Below, piece after piece: positions 1 to 54,821 of a stretch of DNA of 64,000 bases (its first letter is position 1; the number at the start of each line of letters is the position of its first letter). The translations under genes were made by a program, and so were the position numbers. The stretch is from an uncultured Prevotellaceae bacterium (GTDB lineage: Bacteria > Bacteroidota > Bacteroidia > Bacteroidales > Bacteroidaceae), in the NCBI GenBank assembly GCA_947305005.1, contig CAMZCM010000015.1, positions 1 through 64,000 of the forward strand. Reading direction: 5' to 3'. The notes beneath the pieces are model-generated. The model had not been told where the DNA came from. It saw nothing but the letters and a program-made list of their open reading frames with translations, and did no database searches.

Positions 1-1267
1 GCTCGATGCACTCAACCTCCTGAGAGATGAGGCGGAAGCGGTTGCCGAGGTCAACGACAGTTGCCTTGATGCCATAGCCGGTCTTGGAGGTGAACACGAG
101 GCGAGCGGTCTGCTGCTTGCGGATACCGATGCCGAGGAAGTGTACTTCGAGCTTGGGCTTGTCAGTAGCGATCAGCGGGCAGATCTCAAGCATGTGGCTC
201 TGCAGGCAGGAGCTGCGGTTGCCAGCGAAGTTGAGGGTGTAGTCCTCGAGGAAGGAGCAGCCAGTGGACATGCCCTGCTGGATGACCCACAGGGTGCGAT
301 AGAGGCAAGCGGTCTTCCAGTCGCCCTCGGCGCCGAAACCGTAACCCTCTTCCATCAGACGCTGTGAAGCGAGGCCAGGAATCTGGTCGAAGCCGCAGAA
401 GTTGGGATCGTCGATGTCGGCATCGCCGAGGTCGTCGAAGTTCGTGGTGAAGGCGGTGGCACCCTCGTCCTTCAGGACGCGGCGGAGGGCAATCTCAGCC
501 TTGGCTGCATTGTGAACCTTCTCCCAATATACCTTTTCGCCGCTCTCGTCGATCTTGATGGTATAGAGCTTCTTGTACTCCTCAACGAGTGCATCAGCTT
601 CTGCATCGGTGACTCTCTTGAAGTAGTCCATGAGGCAGCTGACGGGGTAGTAGTCAACATGGTAGCCCATGCGCTGCTCGAACTCTACGCGGTCGCCATC
701 GGTAACGGCAACGTTGTTCATGTTCATACCGAACATCAGACAGCGTACGTTGTGAGCATCTGCAACACCAGCTGCTACGCGTGCCCAAACGGCAATCTTC
801 TTCTGTACTTCAGCTTCCTTCCAATAGCCGCAAACCACCTTGCGAGCCACGCGCATACGGGTGCAGATGTGTCCGAACTCGATATCGCCGTGGGCGCTCT
901 GGTTCAGGTTCATGAAGTCCATGTCGATGCTGTCCCAGGGGATTTCAGCATTGTACTGTGTGTGGAAGTGGAGGAGGGGCTTTTGCAGCTGCTGCAGACC
1001 CTTGATCCACATCTTAGCGGGTGAGAAGGTGTGCATCCAAGTGATGATACCAACACACTTCTCGTCGTTGTTGGCGGCCAGCATCACCTGCTCCACTTCC
1101 TTGGAGCTGTTGGCTGTGCCCTTATAGACTACCTTTACGGGGATATTGCCACTCTCGTTCAGACCGGCTACCATTTCCTTGGAGTGAGCGTCAACTGCGA
1201 TGACTGCGTCACCTCCGTAGAGCAACTGTGCACCAGTTACCCACCAAATTTCAAAATTTTCAAACAT
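1..1267 (-). CDS. araA: L-arabinose isomerase (partial, C-terminus cut by window edge)
   Basis: Interconverts L-arabinose and L-ribulose in the cytoplasm, the first step of bacterial arabinose catabolism. About 422 codons are visible, starting MFENFEIWWVTG at 1267. The conserved segments GYGFGAEGDWK, SFLEDY and SHMLEICP carry the family's catalytic Glu, Glu and His. The last catalytic His lies beyond the window edge, so completeness cannot be judged. The family is usually near 500 residues. It lies downstream of araD on the same strand, but a foreign-looking IVP cassette separates the two. The sequence gives high certainty of function. Confidence 0.95.
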   Translation of the reverse strand, partial: MFENFEIWWVTGAQLLYGGDAVIAVDAHSKEMVAGLNESGNIPVKVVYKGTANSSKEVEQVMLAANNDEKCVGIITWMHTFSPAKMWIKGLQQLQKPLLHFHTQYNAEIPWDSIDMDFMNLNQSAHGDIEFGHICTRMRVARKVVCGYWKEAEVQKKIAVWARVAAGVADAHNVRCLMFGMNMNNVAVTDGDRVEFEQRMGYHVDYYPVSCLMDYFKRVTDAEADALVEEYKKLYTIKIDESGEKVYWEKVHNAAKAEIALRRVLKDEGATAFTTNFDDLGDADIDDPNFCGFDQIPGLASQRLMEEGYGFGAEGDWKTACLYRTLWVIQQGMSTGCSFLEDYTLNFAGNRSSCLQSHMLEICPLIATDKPKLEVHFLGIGIRKQQTARLVFTSKTGYGIKATVVDLGNRFRLISQEVECIE

Positions 1268-1282
1268 AGGGATAAATTTTTT

Positions 1283-1315
1283 AATTCACAATTCACAATT
1301 CACAATTCACAATTG
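1283..1315. repeat. Left inverted end of IVP cassette (7-bp units)
   Basis: Four perfect tandem copies of AATTCAC followed by AATTG. Read on the minus strand it matches the right end at 1732-1764 at 32 of 33 positions. It covers the last codons and the stop of the IVP-family gene and lies 16 bp from the araA start codon. Confidence 0.85.
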
Positions 1316-1724
1316 ATACCTTTGTGAGCTGGAAAAGATTCTTGTGAGTTGTTAATGAATAAAATTTTTTTTTCTTTGTAGTATTAATAATGGATATGAG
1401 AATCTTGTTCAATTCCTGACAATCCATATTCAGACTTTCATATTGTTGCTGCGTGATGTATTCCGTTTTAAAGAGCAATTCTAACCAGAAGTCAGTTTCA
1501 TTGGCTTCCTTCAAGGCTATTTTCATTTTATGAATAAAATCATCCTTGCTTTCCGCATGTTCTGCTTCTCTGATGTTAGCACCGATACTAGTTCCACATC
1601 TAAGTATTTGGGAGCAAATGGGTTGTTCTGTATAGTTCAAATTCTTAACAAGATATTTTACTAGTTTGACAATCCTCACTGCAAAATCCATGCTTTTCTG
1701 CTTGACTATATTATCAGTCTTCAT
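1293..1724 (-). CDS. Four-helix-bundle protein, 23S rRNA intervening-sequence (IVP) family
   Basis: A 143-residue protein with the family hallmark SIGANIREAEHAESKDDF near residues 48-65, followed by amphipathic helices (KMKIALKEANETDFWLELL). The family is named for ORFs found inside 23S rRNA intervening sequences and is structurally related to the Avd proteins of diversity-generating retroelements. Its biochemical role is not established. Here it lies outside rRNA, between araD and araA. The start codon is 8 bp inside the right inverted repeat and the stop is within the left one, so the gene fills the repeat-bounded cassette almost exactly. The last 20 or so residues read partly into the repeat and may not belong to the ancestral protein. 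Confidence 0.85.
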   Translation of the reverse strand: MKTDNIVKQKSMDFAVRIVKLVKYLVKNLNYTEQPICSQILRCGTSIGANIREAEHAESKDDFIHKMKIALKEANETDFWLELLFKTEYITQQQYESLNMDCQELNKILISIINTTKKKKFYSLTTHKNLFQLTKVSIVNCEL

Positions 1725-1731
1725 CGCGCAG

Positions 1732-1764
1732 CAATTGTGAATTGTGAATTATGAATTGTGAATT
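1732..1764. repeat. Right inverted end of IVP cassette (7-bp units)
   Basis: Consists of CAATT followed by GTGAATT, GTGAATT, ATGAATT and GTGAATT. It is the inverted copy of 1283-1315 with a single mismatch. It ends a few bases from the araD stop codon at 1771. The two ends could pair into a stem of about 33 bp in any transcript that reads through. Confidence 0.85.
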
Positions 1765-1770
1765 GGAAGA

Positions 1771-2481
1771 TTAATGTTTCTGACCCTTTTGACCATAGTA
1801 TGCATTTGGCCCATGCTTGCGCATATAGTGCTTCTCAATCAACAATGGATTCATGGTTAATTCAGGATTGACACTGAATGCGATGAAGGCCATCTTGGCG
1901 CACTGCTCCATGACTTTGGCGTTATACACTGCATTGTCGGGAGAGGTACCCCATGAGAAGGGACCGTGATTCTTGACGAGCACGGCAGGCGTGTGGTCTG
2001 GGTTGATCTTGCGGATGTTCAGAATCTCATCCACAATGACATTGCCCGTCTCCAACTCATACTGTCCTTTTACCTCAGCCTCGTTCATATCGCGGGTACA
2101 GGGGATATCCTTGTAGAAATAGTCGGCGTGGGTGGTGCCGATATTTGGGATGTCCTTGCCAGCCTGAGCAAAGGCAGTGGCATAGGTGGAGTGGGTGTGA
2201 ACCACACCTTGGATATTGGGGAATGCCTTATAGAGTACAAGGTGTGTAGGGGTGTCGGAAGATGGGTTCAGGTCGCCTTCGACAACCTTGCCGCTTTCGA
2301 GATCGACAACTACCATGTCGGAAGCTTTCATCTCATCGTAGCTGACACCGCTTGGTTTGATGACAACGAGACCTTTCTCGCGGTCGATACCGGAGACATT
2401 GCCCCACGTGAAGATGACCAACCCTTGTTTCACTAAGTCAAGGTTGGCTTTAAAGACTTTTTGTTTGAGCTCTTCTAACAT
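1771..2481 (-). CDS. araD: L-ribulose-5-phosphate 4-epimerase
   Basis: Converts L-ribulose 5-phosphate to D-xylulose 5-phosphate, linking arabinose to the pentose phosphate pathway. A class II aldolase/epimerase of 236 residues, the usual family size. The metal-binding HTHST motif lies near residues 95-99 and a further conserved NHGPFSWG near 170. The start [10 protein letters not shown] at 2481 is chosen because the longer frame would add 36 poorly conserved residues and overlap the regulator gene. It lies 46 bp downstream of the Nudix regulator, so the two are probably co-transcribed. No ribulokinase gene is visible in the window. Confidence 0.93.
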
Positions 2482-2527
2482 GATTATATGTATGATTAAG
2501 ATAAATAATAATAGGTGTATTCTTAGG

Positions 2528-3205
2528 TTAAAGCTTGAAAAATGGCTCTTGTTGATAGGCCGAAGTGTTGAACTGGTACAGGGCTGCACCGCGTTTGGAA
2601 CATACTCTGTCCACTTCTCCTGTCTTTTCTATGAACGCCATTTCGTTAACGCGCTTGCGGAAATTACGCTTGTCTATTTTCTCACCGAGAATCGCTTCAT
2701 AAAGCATCTGAAGCTGAGTGAGTGTGAAATAGGTAGGAAGCAACTGGAAGCCTACGGGTAAGTGACTAATCATACCTCTTAATTTCTTCAACGCTCCTTG
2801 AATCATTTCATGATGGTCAAAGAGCAATGGCGGCAAATGATTCATATCCTCCCAGTAGGCAGAATATTCATGGTGGAGATCCTTGTTGACACGATCGATA
2901 TCCAAAAGAGCAAAGTAAGCAATGGAGATGACACGGCTACCAGAATCACGACTGACAGTACCGAAAGCACCTACTTGTCTCATATAAATATTGTTCAACC
3001 CTGTCAATTGATGTAGCACACGTTGTGCCGCATGGTCAATGTCTTCGTTATCCTTGACAAAACCTCCCATTAATGACCATTCACCTTGATGAGGTTCAAA
3101 CGGACGTTTCTGAAGCAGTACTTTGAGAACACCTTGCTCAAAGCCGAAGATGATACAGTCAACAGCAACGTGGAATTTAGGATATTGGCGATAATAGGAA
3201 TTCAT
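2528..3205 (-). CDS. araR: Nudix-fold transcriptional regulator of arabinose genes (AraR-like)
   Basis: A 225-residue protein with an N-terminal Nudix fold and a C-terminal winged-helix region (about 145-215, [22 protein letters not shown]). The Nudix box starts correctly (GFVKDNE), but the catalytic REUxEE part reads RVLHQLTG. The metal-binding glutamates are therefore replaced and hydrolase activity is unlikely. This matches the NrtR/AraR type of regulator known in Bacteroides, where the dead Nudix domain senses a ligand. Its position directly upstream of araD and downstream of a sugar symporter supports arabinose as the ligand. The operator was not located. Confidence 0.85.
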
Positions 3206-3229
3206 AAATGACTTCGCATATTGAAAGGG

Positions 3230-3257
3230 TTGGGAGCTGAGGATTCTCAGCTCCCAA
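3230..3257. terminator. Hairpin between sugar symporter and araR
   Basis: A perfect 12-bp inverted repeat (TTGGGAGCTGAG arm at 3230-3241, complementary arm at 3246-3257) with a 4-base loop. It lies between the symporter stop (3266) and the regulator start (3205). On the minus strand it is followed by CCTTTCAATAT, a weak T-run. It could be a terminator, an attenuator or an mRNA-processing or stabilising stem separating the transporter mRNA from the araR-araD mRNA. Confidence 0.6.
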
Positions 3258-3265
3258 TAATGAGG

Positions 3266-4996
3266 TTACCAGAAGTACCAGTAGAAGGTAGCGCAGAGAC
3301 CCACGACAACCAATGTGCCGATGATATCCCATACACCCCAACTCTCGCGGATGCTCTTCTTGAAATCGGAGCTGAAGGTGATAGCATCAATCTGTTCCTG
3401 TGAAGGAGCAGGAGTGAAGAAGCTAACAACCACCATCAGAACGATAATGAAGACGAGCAGCCAGCACTCGAAGACGAGCCAGTTGGTCTGCCAGAACCAT
3501 GTGGTGTTCTCCCAGAAGGCACCTTCCATCACTGCCTTACCTGTATCGGTGAGTACGTTAGTGATCAAACGGAGCATACCGACTACGAAGCCGCCGATAA
3601 GACCCCATTCACCTGCCTTCGGAGTAATCTTCTTTGAGAAGATACCCAGTGTGAAGACGGCTACCATGGCGGGAGCCAACAGCGACTGAATACCTTGCAG
3701 ATAGCTATAGAGAGAGCCGAGGCTCATCATCACGGGCATCCACAGCAAGCCTAACAGAACGACAACGACAGTAGCAGTGCGGCCAACGAAGACATAGTGA
3801 GCCTCGCTCTTACCTTTCTTCATGGGCTTGTAGAAGTCCTCGGTGAAGAGAGTTGCGCAGCTGTTGAAGAAGGCTGCGAGAGAAGCAACGAGAGCGCAGA
3901 CGAAACCGATGGTCACGATACCCTTGATACCAGCAGGAAGAATGTTCTTCACCATCAAAGCGAAGGCTGCGTCGGTATCCTCCATGACGAAACCATTGAC
4001 ACCACGCTGAGCCAGAGCTGCAGCAATCATGCCAGGAATGAGGAACATGAAGCAGGGGAGGATCTTGAAGAAACCGGCGGCGATGGTGCCACGACGAGCA
4101 CGAGCCATCACAGCGGCGTTGTCCTCACCAGGTACCTGACCGAGCACACGCTGAACGATGTGCTGGTCGGTGCACCAGTACCAGAAACCGATGATGCAGG
4201 CTCCGAGGAAGACGACATAGCCAGGATATTCAGCATACATGGGATCGCCCGGATCGGTGTGGAACATGTGGTTGATGCCATAACCGTCGTGCATGGAACG
4301 AGCTGTGTCCATCATCGTAGTCCAACCTTCAGCGATGCTGCCACCGCCCAGCGTAGCCAGACCGAGGAACAACACGAGGAAGGAACCGATAATCAGAATA
4401 GGTGTCTGGATGGAGGAGAGTGTCATCACGCCTTTCATGCCGCCGAAGACGGTGAAGACTGCGGTGACGGCAATCAGACCGATAGCGCCGACCCAGAAGT
4501 TCAAGCCCAGCAGGTACTCGAAGAAGATACCACCCGTGAAAGCGGTCACAGAGACCTTGGTGAGCACATAGGCTACGAGGGTGATGATGCTCAGCCAGGA
4601 ACCCGTACGTTGGGTATAACGGAACTTCAGGAAGTCAGGCATCGTGATGATCTTGCCCATCTTGTTAATCAGCAACTGATAGAAAGGCACGAAGAGCCAG
4701 CCAAGGATGAGGATCATCCAGCCTTGCATCTCCCAGTGTGCCATGCCGACACCGTCTTTAGCACCTGTGCCGGCCAGACCTACGAGGTGCTCGGAACCGA
4801 TATTGGCAGCAAAGATAGCCATACCGATCACGTACCAGGGTTCGCCCTTACCGAAGAGGTAAGCGCTTGAGTCTTCGCCCTGTTGTGCCTTCTTGTCTTT
4901 CCAAATGGCATACCATACAGCAGCCACAACGCCCAAGAGACCAATGGCGAGGATGGCCCAGTCGAGCCATAAAAATTCATTTGAACTCCAATTCAT
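3266..4996 (-). CDS. Sodium/solute symporter (SSS family), probable sugar (arabinose) uptake
   Basis: A 576-residue inner-membrane protein with about 14 hydrophobic segments. The SSS signature region includes FGKGEPWYVIGMAIFAANIGSEHLVGLAGTG near residues 48-78, typical of SGLT-like sugar:sodium symporters. It lies just upstream of araR-araD on the same strand and 50 bp after a XylE-like porter, so sugar import is the likely job. Arabinose is inferred from context only. A hairpin follows the stop. Confidence 0.88.
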   Translation of the reverse strand: MNWSSNEFLWLDWAILAIGLLGVVAAVWYAIWKDKKAQQGEDSSAYLFGKGEPWYVIGMAIFAANIGSEHLVGLAGTGAKDGVGMAHWEMQGWMILILGWLFVPFYQLLINKMGKIITMPDFLKFRYTQRTGSWLSIITLVAYVLTKVSVTAFTGGIFFEYLLGLNFWVGAIGLIAVTAVFTVFGGMKGVMTLSSIQTPILIIGSFLVLFLGLATLGGGSIAEGWTTMMDTARSMHDGYGINHMFHTDPGDPMYAEYPGYVVFLGACIIGFWYWCTDQHIVQRVLGQVPGEDNAAVMARARRGTIAAGFFKILPCFMFLIPGMIAAALAQRGVNGFVMEDTDAAFALMVKNILPAGIKGIVTIGFVCALVASLAAFFNSCATLFTEDFYKPMKKGKSEAHYVFVGRTATVVVVLLGLLWMPVMMSLGSLYSYLQGIQSLLAPAMVAVFTLGIFSKKITPKAGEWGLIGGFVVGMLRLITNVLTDTGKAVMEGAFWENTTWFWQTNWLVFECWLLVFIIVLMVVVSFFTPAPSQEQIDAITFSSDFKKSIRESWGVWDIIGTLVVVGLCATFYWYFW

Positions 4997-5046
4997 AACG
5001 AGATTTATTAATTAATTGATTGATTAAGTAAACGATTGTTTCTTGA

Positions 5047-6519
5047 TTACTGCGCTTTTCTCTTCCAGAGATTGGTCATGTCTTCCAGCGTCTTACCCTT
5101 GGTCTCGGGAACAAGCTTCCATACGAAGACGGCAGCGACGACACAGAGGATGCCGTAGAGACCATAGGTGAACCAGTGGCCGAAGTCGTCACCTTCTGTA
5201 AGGTGCATGTTGAACATCGGCACAAAGGTGGAACTGACGATGAAGTTGAAGATCCATTGGAAGGCAACGGCTATAGCAACGGCTCCGCCACGGATTGTGT
5301 TGGGGAAAATCTCGGCGATGAGTACCCAGCAGATGGGACCCCATGAGAACATGAACGAAGCGGAGTAGATGAGCAATGAGGCGGCAGTGACCAACTCAAG
5401 GCCAGCATGACCAAAGGTGGTTGCCACACCGAAAGCACCGAGAGCCATGCCCAGAGAACCGTAGATGAGCAGCGGCTTGCGTCCCCATTTCTCAACGGTA
5501 AAGATAGCTACCAGTGTGAAGAGTATGTTGATGACACCCATGAAGACGGTAATCATCATCGGGTTATCCATACCCATATCGCCGAAGATGCGAGGAGCGT
5601 AGTAGAGGACAGCGTTGATACCGACTGCCTGTTGGAATACGCTGAGCATGATACCGATGAAGATGCACATGAAACCGTAAGTCATCAGCTTCTCGGTCTT
5701 CACAACCATCGTATCCTTGATATCCTGTAGAATCTGAGCGGCACGTGATGCACCGTTAATCTTTGTCAGGATACCCAAAGCCTTCTGATCCTGACCCACT
5801 GATACAAGGTAACGCGGGGTCTCGGGGACAAAGCAGATGAGCAGGGCGAAGAGTCCTGCGGGAACAGCCTCGGAACCGAACATGTAGCGCCAACCTGTAG
5901 TGACTGTCCATTGTGCTGCAGGATTGATGGCGGCAATGCCTTTGCCCATCTCTTCCACTAACGGCTGGATGTGTTCGCCCAGAATGAAGAAGTTGACGAA
6001 ATAGACTACCAACTGACCGAAGATAATGGCGAATTGGTTCCAGCTAACGAGCATCCCTCTGATATTTGAGGGAGCCACCTCACCGATATACATGGGGCAG
6101 ATGGCAGATGCCAAACCGACGCCAATGCCACCAATCACACGATAGATGTTGAAGGTGATGAGCAGTGAGTAGCTGGGCTGACCATATTCAAAGAACAGGA
6201 ACTCAGGGTCCATGGAACCCAATGCTGATACAAAGAACAGCAAGCCGGCGATAATGAGTGATTTCTTGCGGCCGAGGTTCGTTGCTAAAAAGCCCGATAG
6301 GGCAGAGCCGATGATACAGCCTATCAATGCACTGGCAGAAGTAAAGCCGTGCCAGCCGTCGGTGTATGCAAAGTCCTTAGCCTCCATGAAGAATGCTTGC
6401 AGACCTTTCTCTGCACCAGAAATGACCGCTGTGTCATAACCAAAAAGCAAGCCTCCCAGCACCGCTACCATCACGATGCTAATCAGATAACTCTTGCTGC
6501 CTTGATCTGATGTGTTCAT
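5047..6519 (-). CDS. xylE: MFS sugar porter, XylE-like (D-xylose/pentose:H+ symporter family)
   Basis: A 490-residue major facilitator protein with 12 predicted transmembrane segments and sugar-porter signatures: GGLLFGYDTAVISG near residue 21, GRKKSL after TM2, VPETPRYL before the central loop, GRKPLL after TM8 and PETKGKTLEDM at the C-terminus. It catalyses proton-coupled sugar uptake across the inner membrane. It lies 10 bp downstream of a lipoprotein mutarotase and 50 bp upstream of the SSS symporter, forming a three-gene transport operon. Xylose, arabinose or a hexose could be the substrate. Confidence 0.88.
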   Translation of the reverse strand: MNTSDQGSKSYLISIVMVAVLGGLLFGYDTAVISGAEKGLQAFFMEAKDFAYTDGWHGFTSASALIGCIIGSALSGFLATNLGRKKSLIIAGLLFFVSALGSMDPEFLFFEYGQPSYSLLITFNIYRVIGGIGVGLASAICPMYIGEVAPSNIRGMLVSWNQFAIIFGQLVVYFVNFFILGEHIQPLVEEMGKGIAAINPAAQWTVTTGWRYMFGSEAVPAGLFALLICFVPETPRYLVSVGQDQKALGILTKINGASRAAQILQDIKDTMVVKTEKLMTYGFMCIFIGIMLSVFQQAVGINAVLYYAPRIFGDMGMDNPMMITVFMGVINILFTLVAIFTVEKWGRKPLLIYGSLGMALGAFGVATTFGHAGLELVTAASLLIYSASFMFSWGPICWVLIAEIFPNTIRGGAVAIAVAFQWIFNFIVSSTFVPMFNMHLTEGDDFGHWFTYGLYGILCVVAAVFVWKLVPETKGKTLEDMTNLWKRKAQ

Positions 6520-26394: not shown

Positions 26395-27183
26395 TCATGC
26401 TTGTAGTTTCTCTTTAAGAATGTTCCACAAGAACAAAGGATTTCCAACCACATACCTCCTCCACATCCGCTTAGGCTCAAAAAGCAACCTGTAGAGCCAT
26501 TCTATCGAGTGTTTCTGCCACCATATCGGAGCACGTAGTGCTGTTCCCGCATAGAAGTCGAAGACGGCACCGATGGTTCCACAGTGGCAGTGGATGTTAA
26601 GTTCGTGCCAATGCTTATATGTCCACTTCTCCTGCTTAGGTGCTGTCATACCAATCCACAGCAGATCTGGATCAGCATCGTTAATAGCCTGTATCATCGC
26701 CTGATTATCCTCTTCGGAGAACTCTGACTTGTAGGGTGGGGAATAGGTAACAACTTCCAAGTTGGGATAATCGGCAGTCGCCCGTTCCTGAATCAGCGCC
26801 AGCACTTTTTCACTTGAGCCAAGGAACATCACCTTACATCTTACATCATCCTTCTTACATCTTACATCAAGCCTTTGCATTTCAAAAGCAAAAAGATCCC
26901 ATCCAGCAATGCGTTCCTTTGGCTGGCTTTTTGCCTTCAGCCATCGGCAGGCTTTCACTATCGAGGCTCCGTCGGGAATCAGAAACTTCACACACACCGT
27001 TTTGTCATTAACCGTTAACCGTGAACCGTGAACCGTCCTCAGTGCCTCAGCAAACGCCTCATCCTTCTGTGCTACATTAAAGGAGTGTGCGTTGATAGTA
27101 TTGATGAGAACCTTACCATCAGGAATCTTGCTCAATTCTGTTTGCGAGCAGACTATATTTAGCGCTTTGAGTTGAAATGACAT
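26395..27183 (-). CDS. WecG/TagA/CpsF-family glycosyltransferase with translated 7-bp repeats
   Basis: A 262-residue GT26 enzyme that adds a sugar to a lipid-linked precursor at the inner membrane. Family signatures are INTINAHSFN near residue 27, the RIAGWDLF region near 90, YSPPYKSEFS near 148 and MTAPKQEKW near 178 (typical WVGLGSPKQE region). Two stretches (about residues 49-58 and 105-117) are translated heptanucleotide arrays (RTVHGSRLTVND and DVRCKKDDVRCKV), probably surface-loop insertions. Start and stop overlap by 1 bp with the upstream GT4 gene. Confidence 0.85.
   Translation of the reverse strand: MSFQLKALNIVCSQTELSKIPDGKVLINTINAHSFNVAQKDEAFAEALRTVHGSRLTVNDKTVCVKFLIPDGASIVKACRWLKAKSQPKERIAGWDLFAFEMQRLDVRCKKDDVRCKVMFLGSSEKVLALIQERATADYPNLEVVTYSPPYKSEFSEEDNQAMIQAINDADPDLLWIGMTAPKQEKWTYKHWHELNIHCHCGTIGAVFDFYAGTALRAPIWWQKHSIEWLYRLLFEPKRMWRRYVVGNPLFLWNILKEKLQA
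26833..26867. repeat. Heptanucleotide array inside wecG-like gene (1)
   Basis: Units CTTACAT, CTTACAT, CATCCTT, CTTACAT, CTTACAT on the plus strand, a 7-bp period. In frame in the GT26 gene, where three units make seven codons. Confidence 0.8.
27009..27036. repeat. Heptanucleotide array inside wecG-like gene (2)
   Basis: Units TAACCGT, TAACCGT, GAACCGT, GAACCGT, a 7-bp period. Translated on the minus strand as TVHGSRLTVN. Confidence 0.8.
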
Positions 27184-41157: not shown

Positions 41158-42401
41158 AACACGTAACACTTTGTTTTCATTGTTTTTTCAAATTCCTCGT
41201 CAACACTATGGATAACGCACATTTTACGGTCGTCCACCTTATTAGTCACTGGGGCGCTACTGGTACGAAACACACCGCTGTCGAAATAGCGGTCGTCCAT
41301 ACACAGCATCATGCCACACACATACTCGTCGTAATGCTTGCCCTCCCACACGCAGGGATAGGTGCGCTGGTGGATGAAGGGCTGGAGGATGTTGTTGGAA
41401 TTGAAAATTGACAATTGAGAATTGAAAATTGCATTTCTCCACGTATCCTCATCGGTCATCACGCCGGCATACAGGCCTACACTTTTGCCGAGGTCGTAGG
41501 GCTTGAGAATGTATTTGTCCTTGTGTCTCAAGGCATCCTCCCATATCTCCTTACACATATTATTATATAAATAGGTAGGGATGGTGTGCTGGCGCAGGAA
41601 TGCCGTTTCCTCTTCCGTAAGACACTGGCGTGTAAAATCATCCACGAAGATGAGGTGCAGGAAGCGCTTGTCGTGAGCCAGGAAGATGGTGCGGAAGTCG
41701 TTCAGCATCCGCACATCTATCATGGCCTGCAGGGTCTCCATCTTGAAGGACAGCAGGTCATGCTGGTTGAGCGCACTGAATACCACCGCGTCGTGGCTCC
41801 ACTGGTCGATATTCGCTTCCACCTCGGCGGCCTCATAGACGGTCACCTCATGCCCGTAGTACTCATAGAACTTCGTGTAGAAAGTACTCTCGCTACCTCG
41901 GTCGCTGCTCTTTAGCACATAAAGTGGACGGCCTGCGGGGATGATGTCGCGCATGTAGGTCAGCAATTCGTCGTAGCTGCTCTCCCAAGATGCTCCGGGA
42001 TGCTCAGCCATGAACTGCTGTGCCATGGCCTCCGAGGGATAGTTAGCCCAGATGCCGTGTCCGAAGAACCGGCTGGTGATTTCAACAAACAGCAGCCGTC
42101 CGTCGTCGCTGATGAGATAGTCCGGACGGTAGGCTCCTGCACGGAAGGGATAGCGACTCTGTCGGTCCAGAATCTCCATCACCTTCTCGTCTAATGGCAT
42201 GTATTCCGGCACCCATTCGCGGTAATGCTCCGCCATATAGACGATACATTTATAGAGCAGGGCCTGCATGCGCCGCAGTTCGTCGCGCCGCTCCGAGGTA
42301 ATCAGCATTGGCTTGGCGTGATACCAATGATGGTAGTAGTCGGTCTTGTCAGCGAACAGCTGAAAGCAAATCTCTTGACACGAAATATCTTCACGCTTCA
42401 T
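41154..42401 (-). CDS. Putative ATP-grasp protein with translated 7-bp repeats
   Basis: A protein of 415 residues (start MKREDISCQEI at 42401; 30 bp more upstream is in frame). The C-terminal half looks ATP-grasp-like: KYILKPYDLGKSVGLYAG near residue 300, then ILQPFIHQRTYPCVWEG and YVCGMMLCMDDRYFDSGVFRTSS, loosely resembling glutathionylspermidine-synthase-type ligases. The N-terminal half has EITSRFFGHGIWANYPSE near residue 110. Residues near 323-335 (AIFNSQLSIFNSN) are a translated heptanucleotide array between two core segments. A ligase role is inferred from fold only. Confidence 0.6.
   Translation of the reverse strand: MKREDISCQEICFQLFADKTDYYHHWYHAKPMLITSERRDELRRMQALLYKCIVYMAEHYREWVPEYMPLDEKVMEILDRQSRYPFRAGAYRPDYLISDDGRLLFVEITSRFFGHGIWANYPSEAMAQQFMAEHPGASWESSYDELLTYMRDIIPAGRPLYVLKSSDRGSESTFYTKFYEYYGHEVTVYEAAEVEANIDQWSHDAVVFSALNQHDLLSFKMETLQAMIDVRMLNDFRTIFLAHDKRFLHLIFVDDFTRQCLTEEETAFLRQHTIPTYLYNNMCKEIWEDALRHKDKYILKPYDLGKSVGLYAGVMTDEDTWRNAIFNSQLSIFNSNNILQPFIHQRTYPCVWEGKHYDEYVCGMMLCMDDRYFDSGVFRTSSAPVTNKVDDRKMCVIHSVDEEFEKTMKTKCYVL
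41398..41432. repeat. Heptanucleotide array inside ATP-grasp-like gene
   Basis: Units GAATTGA, AAATTGA, CAATTGA, GAATTGA, AAATTGC, a 7-bp period. Translated on the minus strand as NFQFSIVNFQF in another frame and FNSQLSIFNSN in the gene frame. Confidence 0.85.
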
Positions 42402-42418
42402 GGGTGCGGTAGCAAATT

Positions 42419-42446
42419 CTTCACTCTTCACTCTTCATTTTTCACT
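42419..42446. repeat. Heptanucleotide array at radical SAM / ATP-grasp junction
   Basis: Units CTTCACT, CTTCACT, CTTCATT, TTTCACT, a 7-bp period. It covers the last codons (KSEK) and stop of the radical SAM gene and the spacer before the next start. Confidence 0.75.
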
Positions 42447-54714: not shown

Positions 54715-54719
54715 AGGAA

Positions 54720-54750
54720 AAGTTGAAAGTTGAAAGATGAAAGATGAAAG
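54720..54750. repeat. Heptanucleotide array upstream of PIF1-like gene
   Basis: Units AAGTTGA, AAGTTGA, AAGATGA, AAGATGA, AAGTTTT on the plus strand. Roughly inverted relative to the array at 54787-54821, both lying between two divergent promoters. Confidence 0.8.
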
Positions 54751-54786
54751 TTTTTTGAGGAAAACATATCATTTTTCTCTTTTCCC

Positions 54787-54821
54787 TTTTCATTTTTCAT
54801 CTTTCGTTTTTCATTTTTCAC
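54787..54821. repeat. Heptanucleotide array upstream of nitroreductase gene
   Basis: Units TTTTCAT, TTTTCAT, CTTTCGT, TTTTCAT, TTTTCAC. Ends 9 bp before the TACCTTTG -7 box of the nitroreductase gene. Confidence 0.8.

Follow-up and report, generated by a model that had tools for sequence, protein, structure and literature searches.

The window analysed here, a 64,000-nucleotide stretch of an uncultured Prevotellaceae genome, carries near its start a gene for a four-helix-bundle protein of the IVP family, which lies between two genes of an ara operon and is accompanied on either side by inverted tandem arrays of a 7-bp unit. The features of the locus are as follows.

1..1267, minus strand: araA (L-arabinose isomerase), the downstream neighbour, which runs off the contig start.
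1283..1315, minus strand: downstream arm, an inverted array of the upstream arm's unit (AATTCAC x4.6), overlapping the end of the IVP ORF.
1293..1724, minus strand: IVP gene (PF05635/TIGR02436, four-helix-bundle), 143 aa, named from profile matches and belonging to a subfamily with a GTSIGAN motif.
1733..1765, minus strand: upstream arm as read on the coding strand, built of AATTCAC-type units (AATTGTG x4.7), 8 nt before the IVP ATG.
1771..2478, minus strand: araD (L-ribulose-5-phosphate 4-epimerase), the upstream neighbour; the ORF call extends to 2589 with a GTG start.
2528..3205, minus strand: NUDIX/AraR-type regulator, a profile match, given for context.

The araD stop codon ends at 1771 and the araA ATG lies at 1267, leaving a 503-bp gap in which the IVP gene separates the two, as the first-pass annotation had proposed. 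We take the downstream neighbour to be araA from its position and its residues. The best ungapped inverted repeat at the IVP gene spans 33 bp with one mismatch (score 30), each arm holds five AATT cores by manual count on the sequence, and a 21-nt array pattern allowing up to three mismatches finds six overlapping matches in the 64-kb window, all inside the two arms, against 0.02 expected. The annotation's description of inverted 7-bp-unit arrays, identical at 32 of 33 positions and bounding the gene at 1293-1724, is confirmed by the AATTCAC x4.6 and AATTGTG x4.7 arrays. Its further statement that the ORF almost exactly fills the space between them holds in that the ORF lies between the arms, but the last 22 nt of the ORF, with its final codons, form part of the downstream array.

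The encoded protein scores 103 bits against PF05635 (cut-off 33.8) and 113 bits against TIGR02436. Its closest solved structure, and its one significant match, is 2RLD (E 1.3e-42), deposited with five chains; 2GSC, also of five chains, was matched at E 0.36 only, and PMC4990558 describes the Xanthomonas protein of 2GSC as a homopentamer. The gene carries PF05635 only, with no Y1 tyrosine transposase of the RAYT/REPIN kind, and no catalytic domain was found in the cassette. Ribosomal RNA families gave no match to positions 1-6000 of the window.

A cassette of this form could have been an isolated oddity, a possibility ruled out by similar framing in genus, order, phylum and named genomes. Framing was scored as an inverted repeat with a score of at least 14 between 250 bp before and 300 bp after the IVP domain, a threshold that corresponds to 14 matched bases and that two units already reach. 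A detector of strict heptamers proved unsuitable, since units of 8 bp or more are frequent and most arms escape it. The source genome itself, about 86% complete, holds one other IVP gene, which is framed by inverted heptamer arrays of another unit, AAAGTGA. Within the genus, 126 of 139 genomes contain IVP matches (1 to 17 each, 639 in all), and arms frame 81/98 IVP ORFs as compared with 7/300 mismatched flank pairs; these 98 are only a part of the 639, taken mostly from the best-scoring places among the matches listed, and come from close species, so that they are not independent, and L063, which is the same as the window, was dropped before counting. Control ORFs from twenty 20-kb stretches passed in 4/260 cases, one of them itself an IVP gene, which leaves 3/259. 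Among best matches from wider samples, arms frame 17/30 order loci and 14/31 phylum loci (null 2/300 each), and in named genomes, many of them metagenome-assembled, 54/80 IVP loci as compared with 11/400 mismatched flanks. By group labels that are our own, the named set divides into Bacteroidota 16/28, Firmicutes 17/21, Proteobacteria 5/7, deltaproteobacteria 2/2, Acidobacteria 3/4, Planctomycetes 3/4, Verrucomicrobia 3/3, Spirochaetes 1/2, SAR324 1/2, Nitrospirae 1/2, CPR 1/3, unknown 1/1 and Cyanobacteria 0/1; further loci of other phyla gave 9/11. Below the threshold lie 17/98 genus and 26/80 named IVP genes, and rows with cut flanks (e.g. L192, L230 and second hits in L188 and L209) were kept as misses throughout these counts. 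Because weak family members carried arms in 9/20 cases, the association of IVP genes with arms is strong and not universal. Inverted short tandem arms are thus a common feature of IVP genes. The expectation that other IVP genes would be flanked by the same inverted heptamers was therefore right as to architecture (81/98 genus, 54/80 named) and wrong as to sequence, since units differ from element to element. The arms of one Planctomycete IVP gene (L309), built of GTGGACG units, match over 198 bp and are far longer than usual.

Most arms repeat with a period of 7 or 8, and some lineages of the genus have periods of 9 to 12. The unit sequence varies between elements while being common to both arms of any one element. 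Loci scoring below 14 were dropped from the polarity and unit counts that follow, as well as from the wobble, mirroring and similarity counts given further on. Read from the outside in, the arm strand is G-rich at 150 loci, C-rich at 13 and equal at 3; the window shows the reversed polarity, with a C-rich upstream arm, as do 7 of 81 genus loci. Arms of 4-5 units occur upstream and downstream at 33/74 and 39/74 loci in the genus, 26/51 and 22/51 in the named set, and 6/12 and 6/12 in the phylum set; the 16 loci of the order sample, with medians of 5.1 and 6.4, do not show this peak. In the genus, loci of period 7 and of period 8 have much the same median number of units, with arms of about 30 bp and 35-37 bp respectively. 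The named set, which has 7 loci of period 8, does not show this clearly, and at loci of period 9-12 the unit number is not clearly kept. Runs of an in-phase trinucleotide are most commonly 4 or 5 long, except at those 7 named loci of period 8. Whether the unit number might reflect the threshold of the scan was also considered: two units suffice to reach it, and the genus and named counts peak at 4-5, but those of the 16 order loci do not.

The sequence of the unit, in turn, follows the protein. When IVPs of equal period at different sites are compared in pairs, the more alike the proteins, the more alike the units tend to be (Spearman 0.21, 834 pairs): mean unit similarity is 0.55 below 30% protein identity, then 0.58, 0.62 and 0.61 (the last at 50-60%), 0.77 at 60-80% (23 pairs) and 0.90 at identities of at least 80%, where there are 5 pairs, some of them probably one site misread. 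Pairs sharing a site with 40-50% identity have a unit similarity of 0.51 (46 pairs); site labels in this test are blurred by antisense ORFs picked as neighbours. The same pattern appears between subfamilies, where AAT occurs in the units of 8/10 GTS[IV]G IVPs, the window's type, as against 12/118 canonical SIPxNIAEG IVPs, although the GTS[IV]G class was hand-picked after the contrast had been noticed, omits L002 (GTSIHAN) and includes three further araD-araA IVPs. In the script's wider class AAT occurs in 10/20 units, and AG is found in the units of 106/118 canonical IVPs. Sequence comparison thus demonstrates that the array unit goes with the IVP protein lineage and not with the site.

Arrays of such units are also found beyond the arms, and their genomic distribution bears on whether the arms have anything to do with the protein. 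In the genus, AGTTGACR arrays occur in 66/126 genomes with IVP matches and 0/13 without, and AATKCAC arrays in 91/126 and 1/13, counts that include the elements' own arms and are uncorrected for kinship and completeness. Window counts of arrays correlate with IVP number at Spearman 0.33 (AGTTGACR) and 0.53 (AATKCAC). When at least 10 windows are required, the comparison becomes 28/126 against 0/13 for AGTTGACR (p 0.07) and 54/126 against 0/13 for AATKCAC (p 0.002), again with own arms counted and kinship uncorrected. Own arms are not the sole source of these counts, because a genome with one IVP match (G006) has AGTTGACR arrays on five contigs and the source genome has nine AATKCAC-like sites outside its own IVP elements. 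Among 20 genomes of other phyla, of whose IVPs only part were read, AGTAGYC arrays occupy 140 windows in the genome where this unit belongs to an IVP, 33 in a second one with a similar unit and 0-2 in each of the other 18. AGTGGTT arrays are present in 8/20 of these genomes, with G274 (39 windows) and G272 (8) among those lacking a seen cognate IVP; in G275 they are the element's own arms only, and G277, which has a similar unit, has none. Twenty array sites were fetched, and at 12 of them two arrays lie inverted to each other across a spacer of 14 to 195 bp; a long open frame overlaps four of these 12 pairs. Only one of the seven sites taken from the source genome is such a pair. One AATKCAC inverted array pair of the same genome (L375, at G000:C2:5526-5739) has no IVP hit and no spanning ORF and is possibly a non-coding derivative of the window element. 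Elsewhere in the window, period-7 arrays of other units, with no unit-matched inverted pairs, lie at 27008-27036, 41399-41431, 42418-42444, 54719-54750 and 54773-54820.

These distributions speak to a reading in which the arrays are pre-existing intergenic tandem repeats, that is, slippage hotspots at which IVP genes insert or survive by chance and without recognition. Such repeats plainly exist: unpaired heptamer arrays occur in the same genomes, the window included, AGTGGTT arrays are present where no cognate IVP was seen, and tandem heptamers are widespread in prokaryotes according to PMC6344855. However, a strict detector run over 464 kb of window and control DNA found three pairs of inverted, unit-matched arrays (period 7 or 8) no more than 1.5 kb apart, and two of these surround IVP genes (the window's own and that of L157), the third lying in L171 without an IVP; moreover, units track protein lineage rather than site, and the 13 genomes without IVP matches have almost no arrays of the two test units. 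We therefore regard chance association as improbable.

The araD-araA junction in related genomes provides a view of how the window element behaves over time. Among 84 genomes with araD, 30 junctions were fetched and 26 could be read (L073, L078, L080 and L082 could not); judged by eye, four of these carry an IVP ORF, the window included, one an internally deleted IVP, three array remnants, and 18 no array. Gap lengths vary from 30 to 948 bp, and no target duplication was noticed at boundaries judged by eye. The cassette is accordingly not a fixture of the site in all relatives. The four araD-araA IVPs fall in one clade together with two IVPs of other sites, one of them the source genome's second copy, in a tree of few columns and long branches. 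In one relative, a decayed copy of the window element lies between genes that we take to be rnfE and rnfA, where AATTCAC arms surround an internally deleted IVP with 77% identity to the window element over 191 bp; the araD-araA junction of that relative has no array. The terminal repeats of this copy and of close IVP relatives consist of the same unit, while other lineages have other units. The decayed copy indicates that the window element, arms included, has occupied two operons and so moves, and its mobility is well supported by this one copy and a variable junction. The suggestion of the first-pass annotation that this is an IVS-like or mobile-like unit is accordingly strengthened by the variable junction and the second site, by similar ends at most IVP genes read and by the heptamers of the Coxiella 23S rRNA IVS. 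The junction is also insertion-prone, because other small open frames without arrays occupy it in some relatives (L065, L070 and L076, about 940 bp; L087, 467 bp). Just before araA, many relatives (L065, L068, L069, L070, L071, L072, L076, L077, L083, L084, L087, L088, L089 and L091) have a C-rich/G-rich hairpin-like stretch, gacccattgcccc...ggtcttcccc...gggggataagaggggggcc and variants, which is apparently another intergenic repeat.

IVP genes tend to lie in the direction of their neighbours. In the genus, 92/96 upstream neighbours share the strand of the IVP gene, as against 181/260 for control ORFs, and both neighbours do so in 72/89 cases as against 131/260. The downstream neighbour is co-directional in 75/91, which is a low estimate because antisense ORFs were picked by mistake, for example at the sdhA-sdhB and etfA sites. 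Genus sites include araD-araA as well as sdhA-sdhB and etfA-acyl-CoA dehydrogenase, names that come from our own reading of the sequences.

Co-directionality would be expected if the arms paired in the operon mRNA, were cut by RNase III and released the IVP ORF, separating the araD and araA messages, with pairing under selection. Consistent with such excision, the predicted fold contains a long, near-perfect stem of 33 bp that encloses the IVP ORF, and the number of units in one arm correlates with that in the other (Spearman 0.45 in the genus, 0.36 in the named set). A precedent is provided by the Coxiella 23S rRNA IVS, whose terminal stem of 28 bp is cleaved by RNase III and which has tandem heptamers (GACAGAT, in two or three sets by strain) just before the S23p ORF (PMC4990558). 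However, mismatches between arms show no G-U bias (110 wobble vs 154 non-wobble transitions), and unit variants are not mirrored between arms in a test that included a power check, covered periods 7 and 8 only and dropped arrays too short or too uniform. Neither the wobble nor the mirroring test, then, supports arms kept as a co-evolving RNA stem, a reading that we reject, and selection on the ends for pairing in mRNA is not supported, the stem and the arm-count correlation notwithstanding. Processing of the araD-araA mRNA is possible, but the sequences do not point to pairing as a kept property, and excision from mRNA as the reason for the architecture seems to us unlikely.

The reading that we favour, with a confidence only a little better than even, is that of an IVS-type selfish or semi-domesticated mobile cassette whose homopentameric IVP recognises about five tandem cores at each end. 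The cassette would consist of the IVP gene and two inverted tandem arrays that belong to it, each with about five units, and the IVP, a homopentamer in solved relatives, would form a ring that binds nucleic acid and reads its sequence, one core of 3-4 nt per subunit, AG-containing for canonical IVPs and AATT-like for the window's subfamily. Such a ring could recognise both ends of its own element as well as other arrays of the same unit, and may mark, bridge or protect the ends while an enzyme supplied in trans moves the element. The element would depend on the operon around it for expression, which would account for the strand bias, and the IVP perhaps regulates its own expression via the array just before its start codon. 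We infer that the pentamer reads the arrays because this best brings together the number of units, their polarity, the match between unit and lineage and the association across genomes.

Regulation could also be the whole of the function, with the IVP binding only the RNA or DNA array by its own start codon, controlling its own or the operon's expression, and the second arm persisting as a by-product of past mobility. The closeness of the upstream arm to the start of the ORF, 8 nt away in the window, and its five cores for a likely pentamer would suit an autoregulator, but the second arm is as long as the first (median units upstream and downstream 4.1/4.3 in the genus and 4.4/4.4 in the named set) and bears its core on the opposite strand, and we consider this account very improbable.

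Extended beyond the window, recognition of both ends by a pentameric ring leads to a more general proposal that we advance tentatively and hold to be somewhat short of even: that IVPs are pentameric readers with one core per subunit and lineage-specific AG- or AATT-type cores, that widespread intergenic heptamer arrays are largely their sites in the form of element ends, remnants and dispersed pairs, and that 23S IVSs are a minority that landed in rRNA. Our confidence in the cassette and in this extension is the more cautious because the order sample has no unit-number peak and the genome-wide association is weaker at high counts. The work suggests that the tandem 7-base repeats of bacterial genomes, so far unexplained, have a partner in IVP, and joining the two gives both the genes and the arrays a directly testable role. 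The intervening sequences of rRNA would then be one special case of an element found widely, and the link offers lineage-matched protein and repeat pairs for simple work on binding specificity.

Several known systems share parts of this architecture. In RAYT/REPIN systems a gene is framed by inverted copies of a short motif of which further copies are dispersed in the genome. The IVP cassette is similar in having its gene between inverted copies of a motif whose arrays are dispersed in many genomes with IVP matches, AGTGGTT being less clean, but IVP is not a Y1 transposase and the motif is a tandem array that varies between elements. TRAP is a ring protein that reads evenly spaced short cores, one per subunit. 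The model proposed here would likewise involve a ring with one core per subunit, but with an unrelated fold and about five cores at 7-8 nt spacing. Avd, the accessory protein of DGRs, is a four-helix-bundle relative of IVP, and PMC10053308 treats Avd and 2GSC as homologous; the bAvd profile PF22296 was matched below its cut-off by 4/6 IVPs scanned and gave no hit to the window IVP, and the window cassette is without a reverse transcriptase.

Short tandem arrays resembling the IVP arms have been described in several bacteria. In Xanthomonas, GGGAATC tandem heptamers have mostly four units and form 70-75 inverted pairs per genome (PMC4692102); in Geobacter, five heptanucleotides occur in 15/16 class 3 sites, within strand-switching pairs of predicted global-regulator sites (PMC2700814); TAACTGA repeats are found in Beggiatoaceae, Cyanobacteria and Bacteroidetes (PMC4679880); and the SPADE survey, across many prokaryotes, found heptamers to be the most abundant tandem repeats between genes, with function unknown (PMC6344855). 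A general link of tandem heptamers to IVP genes was not found in the accessible open-access literature; in our data the link appears in the genus, order, phylum and bacteria-wide samples.

A further close counterpart is the 23S rRNA IVS of Coxiella, Leptospira and others, which shares with the window cassette an IVP/S23p ORF, a length of about 430-500 nt and a sporadic distribution. Both have terminal inverted repeats of about 28-33 bp and tandem heptamers before the ORF, those of the 23S elements being known from Coxiella (PMC4990558), and the window combines an IVP/S23p-family ORF (PF05635, 103 bits) with terminal repeats capable of forming a stem. It differs in lying between the protein genes araD and araA instead of within 16S or 23S rRNA, and in having about five units per arm, and it is thus an IVS-type cassette outside rRNA.
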